From assembly GCA_023382675.1 (NCBI GenBank), contig JAHDWN010000009.1, forward strand, positions 1-64,000: a DNA stretch of 64,000 nucleotides, written 5' to 3'. The translations under genes were made by a program, and so were the position numbers. Below are positions 58,450 to 62,526 of this stretch, piece by piece; position 1 is the stretch's first letter; each line of letters begins with the position of its first letter. Source of the stretch: Anaerolineae bacterium. GTDB taxonomy: Bacteria; Chloroflexota; Anaerolineae; Aggregatilineales; Phototrophicaceae. The notes under the pieces are model-generated. The model ran no database searches. It saw only the letters and a list, made by a program, of their open reading frames with translations, and was not told where the DNA came from.

Positions 58450-58973
58450 CTATTCCTGACGTAATCGCAATGGATGGTTCTCATCCTCCTGCCACCGTTC
58501 CGGATTCTGGATGATGTAGGCGCGAGTGGCGTTCAATTCCGCCTGGCTGCGAATGATCCGTTCATAATAGTTCCGCTGCCAGCCAAAATCCTCGTATCCG
58601 GCGTTTCGTGCTCGTTTCGTCACCGCCCCTTCGAAGAGACGCACTACAACTCCCAGCGCGCCGTTCATTGCGGTTGGATATGCGGATTCTGTCCGTAGGG
58701 CGCATCATGATGCGCCCCTACTACGGCAACGATCTCGGTCAAGACCAGAATCCCGTGTAGATGATTGGGCATGACGATCCATTCATCCAGTTCGACATGT
58801 GGAAAATGGCCCGGGATGTCCATCCAGCATCGTTCAGCAATTACCTTCAATGCCTCATCTTCAAATGACAGCACGCACTTTTGCGTGCAAATTGTGACGA
58901 AGTAAGCGCCCTCCTGCCGATAATCATAGTCGCGCAGTCGAATCGAGCGCCGGTGATGTTGTGCGTCCCACAC
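58450..58973 (-). pseudogene. REP-associated tyrosine transposase (RAYT), split by frameshift
   Basis: Two frames together make one RAYT/TnpA-REP protein. The first (58973-58665, GTG start, 102 residues) has HHRRSIRLRDYDYRQEGAYF, VTICTQ and the HUH motif VMPNHLHGILV. The second (58668-58450, 72 residues) has VVRLFEGAVTKRAR, the catalytic tyrosine helix FGWQRNYYERII and NPERWQEDENHP. They are one base out of frame and joined by an ATGA stop/start overlap, so either a disabling frameshift or two coupled halves. A REP palindrome is inside the first frame. RAYTs mobilise or maintain REP elements. Confidence 0.8.
58695..58721. repeat. REP palindrome, copy 2, within RAYT gene
   Basis: GTAGG(G)CGCATCATGATGCG(C)CCCTAC form: a palindrome of 27 nt with one extra C. 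It is translated as VGAHHDAPY in the first RAYT frame, i.e. lies in the variable segment between the HUH and tyrosine parts. Confidence 0.8.
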
Positions 58974-59073: not shown

Positions 59074-60063
59074 TTACGGCACGGGAAACCCAGCGTTCTT
59101 GAGCTTGGTGTGCAGGATCTGCTGCCAGTTGCCGCTGGTGTCGAAATCGTCAAAGAGCACGCCGTTAAGATCCGACGGGCGCTCGAAACGTGGGATGGTT
59201 TGGGCGGCGGGCTTGTAGAGCACGAAGACCCGATCCCAGCCGAGCTTGCCGTAAAAGTAGCCAAGTTCAAGCACGACGTTCTGCCGGGCGCGATATTCCA
59301 GCGCACGATCACCGTACTGCTGGAACTCGGCATCCAGCCCACCGAGATCGTCGGACGAGATCAGCACGACCGCGAAATAGGTGTTGCCCGCGTAGAAAAG
59401 TAGCTTCTGGAACAGGCTGTTCTGGTTGGCGTTGGGCATCTTGCTCAGTACGACCGGCGTGACATTGATGCTTTGCAGGTAGGCTTCGATATCGGCCAGA
59501 AACTGCCGATCACGCCCATGCACCACGAACACCGAGTCAGGCGGCGCGGCGGTGGTCGACGCGGGCAGACTGCCGCCGCGTGCAGCATCCGCCGACTCGG
59601 TCGCTATCTGGGCGATCTCGTTGTCATGCAAGCCGGTGTGCATGGCCGTCGGTGCAGCCTCGCTGCGCTTGATCGCATCGGCGAGACGTGAAGCCTGTTC
59701 GCCGACACGACTCCAATCGCGCACGTCGAGATACAGGATCGTCTGCAAGCTCGCAGGAATGGCTTCCGCTGGCAGATCGTCAAGCAAGACGGGGAAGACG
59801 CTGGCGGCGCGGTCGATGATGGTAGACAGCTCCGAATGCACCCAGGTCGAATTCACACTCGCGCGTGAAAGAAAGACGATCAGCCCGGCGGCATTCTCCA
59901 ATCCAACTTCGATGCTGTGGACCCAGTTTTCACCGGGGGCGAGGGCGTCGACATCGATCCACGTTCGGATGCCCTGCTCGTTCAAGCGGGCGACAAACTC
60001 ACGCACACGTTCGATGTCGGCGCGGGCATAACTGACAAAATAATAGGGCTGCTGCAAGTCCAC
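59074..60063 (-). CDS. Tandem TIR protein: canonical TIR plus CAP12/PF10137-type TIR
   Basis: 329 residues, cytoplasmic. TIR 1 (about 6-135): YYFVSYARADIERVREFVAR, GIRTWIDVDALAPGENW, LIVFLSRASVNSTWVHSELS with the expected catalytic Glu78. Linker about 136-175. TIR 2 (about 176-329): SVFVVHGRDRQFLADIEAYL, VVLISSDDLGGLDAE, RQNVVLELGYFYGKLGWDRV with Glu266, and PSDLNGVLFDDFD. The second is the nucleotide-binding TIR-like type used in CBASS/Pycsar effectors (CAP12-like). Both could be NADases. No cyclase, STING or Argonaute is next to it. GTG 60063 (GGGAG upstream) is preferred; GTG 60111 is possible. Confidence 0.85.
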   Translation of the reverse strand: MDLQQPYYFVSYARADIERVREFVARLNEQGIRTWIDVDALAPGENWVHSIEVGLENAAGLIVFLSRASVNSTWVHSELSTIIDRAASVFPVLLDDLPAEAIPASLQTILYLDVRDWSRVGEQASRLADAIKRSEAAPTAMHTGLHDNEIAQIATESADAARGGSLPASTTAAPPDSVFVVHGRDRQFLADIEAYLQSINVTPVVLSKMPNANQNSLFQKLLFYAGNTYFAVVLISSDDLGGLDAEFQQYGDRALEYRARQNVVLELGYFYGKLGWDRVFVLYKPAAQTIPRFERPSDLNGVLFDDFDTSGNWQQILHTKLKNAGFPVP

Positions 60064-60132
60064 GGCGTAATTGCTCCCGCATAACTGCTTGGCATCCCTA
60101 TTTGAGCACACTATTCAGTTGCTGCAAAATCT

Positions 60133-60197: not shown

Positions 60198-61085
60198 TTA
60201 TTCAGTTACGACCGGGAGTTCCGCCGCTTTCCAGGCGTTGATGCCGCCGGCCAGGTTACGAACGTTGGTGTAACCGAGCAGGCCAAGCTGAGTCGCCACA
60301 ATGCCGCCGCGATAGGCGCTGGCGCAGTAAACGACGATGCTCGTGTCTTTATCTTCTGGCAGTTCGGACAGATTGGTGTAGAAGTTGTTGATCCACAGAT
60401 GCTCTGCGCCTTCGATGTAGCCCTCTGCCCATTCATCGTCGCTGCGCACGTCCAGTAGTAGGTCGGGCATCGTCTCGAACATCTCTTCAAACAGATCGGT
60501 CGCCTTGACACCACCCCAGCCCTGCGGCAGGTTGGCGAGATATTCGCTGACGTATTCGACCAGCATCGGATCAATCGCTTCCGGAACCTCAGCCGGTTCG
60601 ACTTCGGCGGGAGCCTCAACGACAGGCAGTTCTTCACCGACCCAGGCATCAAAACCGCCGGTCAACACTTTCACATCGGTGTAGCCGAGCGTTTGCAGTG
60701 CCGTCATGCCGATGGTCGCGCGGAAGCCCGCCTTGCAGACGACGACAATCGTTGCATCCACATCGGGCAGCAGGTCGAGGTTTTCACCCAGTGTGCGCAG
60801 AGGAATATGGACAGAACCTTCGATGATGCCCACTTCTTCGATCTCGGCATCTTCGCGCACGTCAAGGATGGTGACGTCCGGATTTTCCGCCAGCAGTTCG
60901 AGGAACCCCTCGACATTGATCGTGCCGTATTTTTCGGGGATGTTGTCGTAATACGCCTCAAGCTGCGGCATGAGCACGTCTTCGACCACATCGACTTCGG
61001 CGGTCGTCTGGGCACTCGCCACGCCCGGCAGCACCAGCAGCGATGCAAGGACGAGCAGGAACAGGAACCGGGTAAACTTAGCCAT
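60198..61085 (-). CDS. Exported double-rhodanese protein
   Basis: 295 residues. Sec signal peptide (FLFLLVLASLLVLPGVASA, cleavage before QTTAE). Rhodanese domain 1 (about 45-157) has active loop CKAGFRAT with Cys117; domain 2 (about 185-295) has CASAYRGG with Cys254. Both cysteines and the following arginines are present, so both domains may carry persulfide. Acts outside the cytoplasmic membrane in sulfur transfer. AAGGG lies 10 nt upstream of the ATG at 61085. It follows the multihaem cytochrome gene by 91 bp on the same strand, pointing to a shared sulfur or electron-transfer role. Confidence 0.87.
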   Translation of the reverse strand: MAKFTRFLFLLVLASLLVLPGVASAQTTAEVDVVEDVLMPQLEAYYDNIPEKYGTINVEGFLELLAENPDVTILDVREDAEIEEVGIIEGSVHIPLRTLGENLDLLPDVDATIVVVCKAGFRATIGMTALQTLGYTDVKVLTGGFDAWVGEELPVVEAPAEVEPAEVPEAIDPMLVEYVSEYLANLPQGWGGVKATDLFEEMFETMPDLLLDVRSDDEWAEGYIEGAEHLWINNFYTNLSELPEDKDTSIVVYCASAYRGGIVATQLGLLGYTNVRNLAGGINAWKAAELPVVTE

Positions 61086-61176: not shown

Positions 61177-62526
61177 TCATGGAATCGAGTCCAAATCGAC
61201 GAGCACATCTTGATTGGCGCGCCGTTCTGCACGGTCAACCGTCCGGCGCGTCAGGAACAGTTCGTCATTGTCATGACAGCTATCGCACGTTTCCGTCTGC
61301 GGCGTGACGCGCTGGATGTTATGCGGCGTCGCGTACATCCAGGTAGGACGCTCGTCGAAATTCGGCAGCAGATCTTCACCGTAGAAGCTGAACGAATCGG
61401 GTGCGATTGGCACGTGGCGCACGGGCACATACTCGTAAGGCCGATCCTCGCTGCGATTCGTGTTCAGCCCGATGTAGAAGCCGAGATAGTGATCTTCAAC
61501 GGTGTAGAACGGGACACCATCCTCGGTCTGTTCGACGTGACAGTTGACGCAGTTGGTGTAGGTCGTGCTGTGACAGACCTGACAGGCGAGATCGTACTCG
61601 TCGTGTGCGCTGTGCATCTCGATCTCGGTGTCAGCGTCCTCGCCCATCTCGATGTCGTCGTGACAGTCGAGGCAGCCCGGATCGGGCGCGCCATCATAGC
61701 GGCTGGTCTGCTCGCCCGCTGCGCCCATGCCATGCATGGCGTCCGCCGTATGGCATTCCATGCAATCCATACGCGCACGGAAGTGTACGTCGCTGGGGAC
61801 GCCTTCGTTCGCGCCATAGTATTCATTCTTGACGCGGCTGCCATGGCAGGCCGTGCATTGGCGCGACATCGACGGCGACGCTTCAAAGTCATGACCGCTG
61901 ACCAATCCACCACCGACAGAGGTGGGTTGGCTCACATGGCAGTCGCCACAAGTCGCGTGGCATTGGTTGCAATGATTGGCCTGCATCTCCTCCAGCGCAG
62001 GATGATTTTCCGGCGTACTTCTCTCGTAGAGCGCCGTGTCATATCCGGCAAGCGTGTTGTGCAAGCTGTCGTACTGAGTGGGGCCGACGTCAACGTGGCA
62101 GCGCCCGCAAACCTCCGGGCTGTTGACGACCCTCTCGACCTGCCCTTCATGCGCAAGCTCGAAATCGTCAACCGCTTCGCCGCCGTGACATTCGGTGCAA
62201 TTGATGTATGAATGTATGTCCTGACCAAAAGCTTCGGCGTCAATCCAGACGCGCTCCCATGGCTCCATCGGAGTCACGGAGCCGCCTCAGCCAGGGCCAG
62301 AAGACAGAGCTTCCGGCGCTTCCTCCTCGACCGCCAGTTCGGATAACCGCTGTTGATCCGCATGGCATTCCAGGCAGGCGAAATCCTCGAACGGTTCGAT
62401 CTCCAGGCGTGGACTTGCCAGCGAGACCGACACCCCCCCAACCGAACTCGATAACATCGCGATGCCTGCTGCCATCAGCAGCGCACCACCGGCGACCAGG
62501 GCCGAAATCAGCCGTGGACGCAGCAC
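61177..62526 (-). CDS. Exported 11-haem cytochrome c with in-frame TGA
   Basis: One continuous 450-codon frame broken only by TGA at codon 80 (62287-62289). Before it: signal anchor (LISALVAGGALLMAAGIAML) and the first haem site, CLECH. After it: ten more CXXCH sites, in order CTECH, CGRCH, CNQCH, CGDCH, CTACH, CMECH, CLDCH, CQVCH, CVNCH, CDSCH. The long second part has no signal of its own, though haem attachment needs export, so it makes sense only as one protein. The TGA is in Gly-Pro-Gly-stop-Gly-Gly-Ser. Options are selenocysteine, a nonsense change, or error. Electron transfer outside the membrane is expected; the partner may be the rhodanese protein. Confidence 0.8.
62256..62280 (-). 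promoter_or_regulatory. Candidate SECIS-like stem-loop after in-frame TGA
   Basis: In the coding RNA, nucleotides 7-17 after the TGA pair with 21-31: six pairs (two of them G-U), one A-C mismatch, four pairs, with apical loop GAU. The loop begins 17 nt after the TGA, near the distance in the E. coli fdhF element, and starts with G. A competing 6-bp stem (GGCUCC/GGAGCC) with an 11-nt loop overlaps it. Confidence 0.4.

Follow-up and report, generated by a model that had tools for sequence, protein, structure and literature searches.

The selenocysteine codon of a predicted undecahaem cytochrome of Anaerolineae is kept and lost together with an adjacent rhodanese gene

This study analysed a stretch of 64,000 nucleotides from an Anaerolineae bacterium (the window); the draft genome to which it belongs has 110 contigs. 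The window carries a multihaem c-type cytochrome gene interrupted by one in-frame TGA, and sequence comparison makes it close to certain that this TGA is decoded as selenocysteine (Sec) by SelB, tRNA-Sec, and a SECIS hairpin. Across the relatives of this gene, the Sec codon and an adjacent rhodanese gene were shown to be kept and lost together. The best explanation of these findings as a whole is a Sec cytochrome that would exchange sulphur or selenium with the rhodanese and carry out redox chemistry through its haems, and we assign this explanation a probability of roughly 0.8. The features under discussion are the following.

61177..62526, minus strand: gene for a predicted Sec-containing undecahaem c-type cytochrome (translation with TGA as U, Pfam, CXXCH count)
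62287..62289, minus strand: in-frame TGA read as selenocysteine (70/80 fetched and 79/80 named loci)
62260..62361, minus strand: putative Sec arm, the linker from the haem-1 motif to an invariant Trp, with the motif G-x-G-U-[GA]-G (conservation, model confidence)
62259..62277, minus strand: predicted SECIS apical hairpin with a 3-nt loop at 62267-62269 (folding, covariation, synonymous constraint)
60198..61085, minus strand: two-domain rhodanese with an N terminus that appears signal-like by eye (translation, PF00581)

The in-frame TGA and its conservation

Translation of the minus strand revealed a GTG start at 62526 and a final TGA stop at 61177-61179; the gene comprises 450 codons including both TGAs, and the product has 449 residues, with Sec as residue 80. 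The TGA at 62287-62289 is the sole in-frame interruption. An earlier, sequence-only reading had described a signal peptide and first CXXCH in the same frame as ten later CXXCH motifs, parted by one TGA in the context Gly-Pro-Gly-[TGA]-Gly-Gly-Ser, and translation confirmed this arrangement: the read-through product contains 11 CXXCH motifs, one before and ten after the TGA, and its N terminus is signal-like by eye. The Pfam profiles Cytochrome_C7 (PF14522) and Cytochrom_c3_2 (PF14537) both matched above their cut-offs. By its CXXCH motifs and c7/c3-like profiles the product is a multihaem c-type cytochrome, with haem binding predicted.

We compared this gene with its relatives in a draw of 396 genomes of the class. 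Cytochrome matches were present in 78 of the 396 genomes and in 55 of 222 genera, and a TGA-bearing cytochrome was found in 69 genomes. Exactly one internal stop occurred in 70 of the 80 loci fetched from this sample (L017-L096), and it was always TGA and always within G-x-G-TGA-[GA]. Five loci carried another codon at the Sec column (TGG, TTG, CAC, TTT, and GTG), and five offered no usable column (L091, L093, L094, L095, and L096); L091 begins inside the arm at a contig edge and lacks the TGA, and L093 and L094 are fragments. A second set, overlapping the first in some genomes, was taken from a species-level collection in which 550 relatives were confirmed, and consisted of the best 80, which carry Chloroflexota titles, mostly Anaerolineae; TGA was found in 79 of these 80 named loci, the exception being L169 with TGG. 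Of 400 genomes drawn from the phylum, 13 gave a match at E 1e-30, three of them outside the class: G405 (two copies) and G502 with one TGA, and G412, a weak match, with none.

The sequence-only reading had expected either TGA or a Cys codon in homologues. The TGA was found as expected, but a Cys codon was found in none of the 80 fetched class loci and in none of the best 80 named loci. Cys homologues exist for most thiol-chemistry selenoproteins and, without being obligatory, commonly serve to support a selenoprotein; their absence was counted against the preferred explanation. The replacements are rare and consist of Trp, Leu, His, Phe, and Val. A non-Cys residue such as Trp, which the sequence-only reading had regarded as contrary evidence, thus does occur in a few sequences; on the tree these sit among TGA-bearing relatives and are secondary losses.

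The same comparison bears on the idea that the TGA is a true stop, produced by a pseudogene mutation or a sequencing error, which the sequence-only reading had kept as an alternative. This idea is a formal possibility for a draft genome. Against it stand the identical codon in 79 of the 80 named loci (best of 550) and 70 of the 80 class loci, the conservation of the protein sequence on both sides of the TGA, and a downstream part that by eye lacks a separate signal peptide. Because the conservation spans dozens of genera (55 of 222 had matches), a private mutation or read error is excluded, and we consider this alternative already refuted, with a probability of practically nil. The proposal that both parts are translated as one chain is instead supported by the conserved TGA, by the Sec machinery, and by a SECIS-like hairpin in the homologue comparison.

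The SECIS hairpin and the selenocysteine machinery

The stem-loop predicted from the single sequence, with a 3-nt loop starting with G, was present: in the gene of the window, the loop G-A-U (62269-62267) starts 17 nt past the UGA. Folding of this one sequence gave a divided answer. The 50 nt from the UGA folded at -23.2 kcal/mol (z -2.62; 4 of 200 shuffles equally good), whereas in an 86-nt fold the overlapping second stem that had been suspected as a competitor was preferred, and z was only -0.75. The hairpin of the window itself contains one A.C mismatch, because its codon there is ACT, as against GCT or CCT in the majority of relatives. The competing stem was also considered as a conserved element and was rejected, because it uses codon 54, the letters of which differ among homologues. 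Single-sequence folding alone is thus unconvincing; the comparison of homologous sequences puts the hairpin far beyond chance.

The alignment of the hairpin comprised 70 TGA loci with 63 distinct rows. A hairpin of seven pairs, at positions 13-29 after the UGA, was formed in 94.8% of the cells, and its covariation score was 0.236, which none of 500 shuffles reached (shuffled mean 0.071); versions of the hairpin slid along the alignment all scored at most 0.037. RNAalifold, unprompted, returned six of the seven pairs. One covarying pair alternated between CG and GC, another among GC, GU, CG, and AU, and a third between CG and AU. The pairing was retained even where the encoded residues changed, as in PPLEA (GCCUCC/GGAGGC), APLEP (GGCUCC/GGAGCC), PPLEG (CCCUCC/GGAGGG), and PQVEA (CCUCA/UGAGG). 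Synonymous constraint across 396 codon columns of 54 sequences pointed to the same element, with the hairpin codons 55-58 ranking as the top four and codon 59 sixth.

Two observations on the hairpin were counted against the preferred explanation. The standard hairpin is absent in L022, L085, and L088, although in L085 and L088 a version displaced by 3 nt may take its place, as judged by eye from their sequences. Both loci with TGG at the Sec codon, L031 and L169, retain a pairing hairpin; the stem in L169 reads GGCUGC/GCAGCC. The other three of the five lineages that lost Sec, in contrast, carry a damaged hairpin, with one mismatch in L046 and more in L086, L089, and L090. Rfam contained no real match to the element, the single match having an E of 8.2.

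The search for selA, selB, selC, and selD that had been proposed for the genome of the window found all four components, each above its cut-off: tRNA-Sec at 72.4 bits, SelB at 367.6, SelA at 549.9, and SelD at 370.1. The same genome encodes a formate dehydrogenase FdhA with a TGA in the context ARL-TGA-HSSTV. Its SelD gene (L248, contig C17) carries an in-frame TGA of its own, and SelD is probably itself a selenoprotein. Among the 69 genomes with a TGA-bearing cytochrome, Sec decoding was found in 66, comprising 58 with tRNA-Sec (from lists compared by eye; background 310/396) and eight more with SelB. A recheck of the other 11 genomes found no tRNA-Sec; SelB exceeded its cut-off in eight of them (G112, G203, G224, G048, G090, G104, G285, and G393), and G124, G161, and G370 (87, 80, and 72% complete) had neither tRNA-Sec nor SelB above the cut-off, which was counted against the preferred explanation.

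The conserved TGA, the covarying hairpin, the synonymous constraint, and the Sec machinery together argue for a selenoprotein, and this combination of sequence evidence leaves little room for anything except Sec. A selenium-free reading, in which the UGA is read as Trp or passed by ordinary readthrough, could point to the TGG codon in L031 and L169. It would leave a hairpin that covaries at the SECIS distance, a genome with Sec machinery and other UGA-containing genes of selenoprotein type, and a terminal stop of the cytochrome gene that is itself TGA, and we regard it as very improbable.

The adjacent rhodanese and its co-loss with the Sec codon

The rhodanese gene at 60198..61085 is the next gene on the same strand and begins 91 nt past the stop of the cytochrome gene; its product matched PF00581 in two stretches (E 1.3e-38). 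It is followed, also on the minus strand, by a gene at 59074-60111, the product of which resembles a TIR-type protein, and by a short ORF at 58665-58973, possibly a fragment of a REP-associated transposase.

We tabulated the neighbours in the 67 named loci of more than 9 kb, with identities taken from one scanned member each. The commonest neighbour was a same-strand rhodanese, present in 64 of the 67 loci and in L097 besides; two of these rhodaneses, scanned with Pfam, contained two and six rhodanese stretches. A LysR regulator was found in 52 loci, a second multihaem cytochrome in 32, an NrfD protein in 22, and an Fe-S protein in 22. The LysR gene lies on the strand of the cytochrome in 17 of its 52 loci, and none was recognised by eye beside the gene of the window. 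The scanned LysR was closest to NF040786, 'selenium metabolism-associated LysR' (223.2 bits, below the cut-off of 250), and probably represents the LysR_Se subfamily that PMC5322559 ties to Sec metabolism.

Some of the rhodaneses lack the CxxxxR loop, which was counted against the preferred explanation. A second kind of partner rhodanese carries CYSGQT, CYTGQT, or CYTGHT loops in place of CxxxxR; it was seen in L127 (5993-7159), L157 (6503-7639), L173 (6406-7566), and L150 (9267-10406), and in all but one of these loci it lies upstream of the cytochrome.

The co-loss comparison covered 122 TGA-bearing and seven TGA-less cytochromes in 128 loci (L097-L176 and L199-L246). These comprised the 80 named loci, nine TGA-less copies or relatives, and 39 loci from TGA genomes of the class draw, which were chosen before their neighbours were seen. 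Rhodaneses were detected by one profile search, and adjacency was scored rather than presence elsewhere in the genome. Every one of the 105 TGA copies that had at least 600 bases on both flanks proved to have a rhodanese on its own strand no more than 3 kb away; it lay downstream in 68 and upstream in 37, at a distance of 1345 bases at the farthest. The 17 TGA copies dropped for a flank below 600 bases included nine with a rhodanese and eight with none shown, and those eight have at most 518 bases on one side. No rhodanese was found within 3 kb of any of the seven TGA-less copies, the upstream side of L204 being cut at 41 bases. In the 29 loci with flanks of at most 1.5 kb (L018-L046), which were excluded from this count, one rhodanese query matched 25; the four misses were L031 and L046, both TGA-less, and L030 and L037, both TGA-bearing with a flank cut short.

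The tree requires five losses of Sec, and the rhodanese was concordant in all five independent pairs. The sign test with five pairs gave p 0.0625, the lowest value attainable, which was counted against the preferred explanation; Fisher's test (105/105 vs 0/6) gave 4e-10 and ignores kinship. Individual loci illustrate the pattern. L199, with TGG, has no rhodanese, although an Fe-S gene and, as judged by eye, genes for an NrfD-like protein and a second cytochrome are still there; its near relative L205, with TGA, has a rhodanese directly upstream. In G261, a TGA copy and a non-TGA copy lie on one contig, with the rhodanese approximately 1.3 kb from the former and more than 6 kb from the latter. 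Only rhodanese fragments remain in L169, where a LysR query found nothing at E 1e-8. The G261 locus (L202; G261:C10:1-18000) thus holds a TGA paralogue with a rhodanese nearby and a TTT paralogue, and second-cytochrome, Fe-S, and NrfD genes lie between the two. The joint loss of the Sec codon and the rhodanese suggests that the Sec cytochrome and the rhodanese cooperate.

The Sec arm, its possible role, and known systems

Haems 1 and 2 are joined by a Gly-rich linker, and Sec lies in it. In 54 sequences, G48, G50, G52, and G53 around Sec51, as well as W61 (alignment numbering), are invariant. G48 and G50 precede the hairpin, so the protein motif is under selection in addition to the RNA. From haem 1 onward, 77 of 79 proteins have no Cys outside CXXCH, leaving Sec as the only non-haem Cys or Sec; the extra Cys in the two exceptions, L142 and L172, resemble altered haem motifs. 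A lipobox-like stretch occurs in the leader of 59 of the 79 proteins and, by eye, not in that of the window. A structure model gave a mean pLDDT of 84.8 with weaker values at residues 41-60 (block means of 69 and 73), as would be expected of a flexible arm. Two distant relatives, L095 and L096, have 11 and 13 CXXCH motifs and a shorter linker without the Sec motif. On this sequence comparison, the arm seems to have been either inserted into an older cytochrome scaffold or deleted from it.

No strong relative emerged from the fold searches, and we therefore draw no function from the fold. Similarity was weak to hydroxylamine oxidoreductase, OcwA, and octahaem nitrite reductase (best Z 4.8, to 6t5e, with an rmsd of 5.0 over 188 aligned residues), and Foldseek returned no match to the model at E 0.001. 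The single protein matched nothing in the PDB by sequence at E 0.1; a profile search of the PDB returned 10 weak matches (best E 3.7e-7), which fall in segments of other multihaem cytochromes.

Rhodaneses carry sulphane sulphur on Cys. In the proposed mechanism, the active-site Cys of the rhodanese would hold sulphane sulphur or its selenium analogue, the sulphur or selenium would be exchanged between the rhodanese and Sec on the flexible arm, and the haem chain would then reduce (or oxidise) the Se-S adduct; in loci with NrfD, Fe-S, and second-cytochrome genes, the quinone pool would supply the electrons. A Sec that sits on a probably mobile arm, without another free thiol in the haem-bearing part, in a protein with eleven haem sites and a tie to a rhodanese, is best interpreted as the hand-over point for the persulphide or its selenium analogue, and as the site of its reduction or oxidation, with polysulphide, thiosulphate, and selenite as candidate substrates. 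The cytochrome may also serve other partners without Sec, which would explain the Sec-less copies with intact haem motifs. We infer this Sec-rhodanese chemistry, in both its exchange and its redox step, from sequence comparison. A more specific version falls somewhat short of even odds and is offered tentatively: an exported rhodanese would load the Sec arm and haem electrons would cleave the Se-S bond. The system would then be a two-protein reductase of sulphur or selenite that depends on selenium and acts outside the cytoplasm; it would occur widely in one class of Chloroflexota, may have evolved separately from ExtKL, and would rely on a Sec that Cys does not replace.

Two other roles for Sec were weighed. 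Sec might be an axial ligand or redox residue at a haem of its own protein, with the rhodanese linked only through shared selenium metabolism, and both its status as the sole non-haem Cys or Sec in 77 of 79 proteins and the His at the Sec column of one Sec-less copy (L086) would fit such a ligand. This role is nevertheless unlikely, given that Sec lies on a Gly-rich arm of lower model confidence, that L095 and L096 lack the arm despite their 11 and 13 haem motifs, that the remaining replacements are Trp, Leu, Phe, and Val, and that the rhodanese disappears with Sec in five lineages. Alternatively, the UGA might act mainly as a selenium switch for the full-length cytochrome, the residue itself hardly mattering; the LysR gene in 52 of 67 loci, with NF040786 as the nearest model of the one scanned (223 bits, cut-off 250), and replacements chemically unlike Sec are consistent with this. 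A pure switch has no need of the flanking glycines, yet 54 sequences keep them without exception, including the two glycines that precede the hairpin, and the co-loss with the rhodanese also speaks against it; we hold it to be quite unlikely. Haem ligation, a selenium switch, and selenium-free readthrough each fit the co-loss and the motif less well than rhodanese exchange coupled to haem redox chemistry.

The sequence-only reading had called selenoproteins among c-type cytochromes unusual, and this is right, but they are not unprecedented: a table in a 2026 review lists ExtKL, the GSU2204 family, and an octahaem cytochrome of the tetrathionate reductase family (TIGR04315) as selenoproteins (PMC13188914). 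The latter two share Sec in proteins with CXXCH motifs with the present family. TIGR04315 differs in haem number and matched only three of 35 members weakly (best E 0.00036), and GSU2204 differs in being given in that table as an MtrB/PioB-type beta-barrel protein. The multihaem cytochromes of the ExtM, ExtN, HmcA, and NrfB types show weak sequence similarity to the family, probably through the haem motifs. The ExtM model matched 26 of 35 family members (best E 3.3e-11), and the protein of the window scored far below the curated cut-offs (ExtM, 10.1 bits vs 800; HmcA, 15.9 vs 400); among the NCBIfam matches listed for this protein, none came near its cut-off.

The closest known system is ExtKL of Geobacter sulfurreducens (GSU2937-2936, NF040886), described in PMC6148476 and PMC5877670 as a predicted Sec pentahaem cytochrome encoded in an extHIJKL cluster with the rhodanese lipoprotein ExtH. 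According to these papers, a LysR regulator lies upstream on the opposite strand in nearly all clusters of this type. PMC5877670 reports that loss of the porin ExtI impairs selenite and tellurite reduction, and its authors mention a preliminary link between ExtKL and selenite reduction. The protein of the window did not match NF040886 at E 0.01, the model was not among the matches listed for family members (25 of 33 families, E 1), and it matched nothing in the genome of the window at E 0.001. No porin (ExtI) or small ExtJ was recognised among the nine neighbour proteins scanned.

Sec in cytochromes is not new; the Sec cytochrome family with a rhodanese partner described here is new, in that a search of the open-access literature found no report of a Sec cytochrome in Chloroflexota. 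Since standard gene callers stop at a TGA, they are likely to miss this family. Through the co-loss, the role of Sec in multihaem cytochromes can be put directly to a biochemical test, with the rhodanese as the named partner, in a Sec family that shows no Cys form in the loci compared. Like ExtKL with ExtH, the present system joins an in-frame TGA in a multihaem c-type cytochrome to a rhodanese in the cluster; a LysR gene also lies in 52 of 67 loci here, though on either strand and not, by eye, beside the gene of the window. In contrast to ExtKL, which has five haems and a TGA after the pentahaem part, the present family has 11 motifs and a TGA between the first and second; NrfD and Fe-S genes occur in about a third of its loci, whereas the Geobacter cluster is described with Rieske and cytochrome b genes. 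This is the second case, after ExtKL and ExtH of Geobacter, of a predicted Sec multihaem cytochrome beside a rhodanese.
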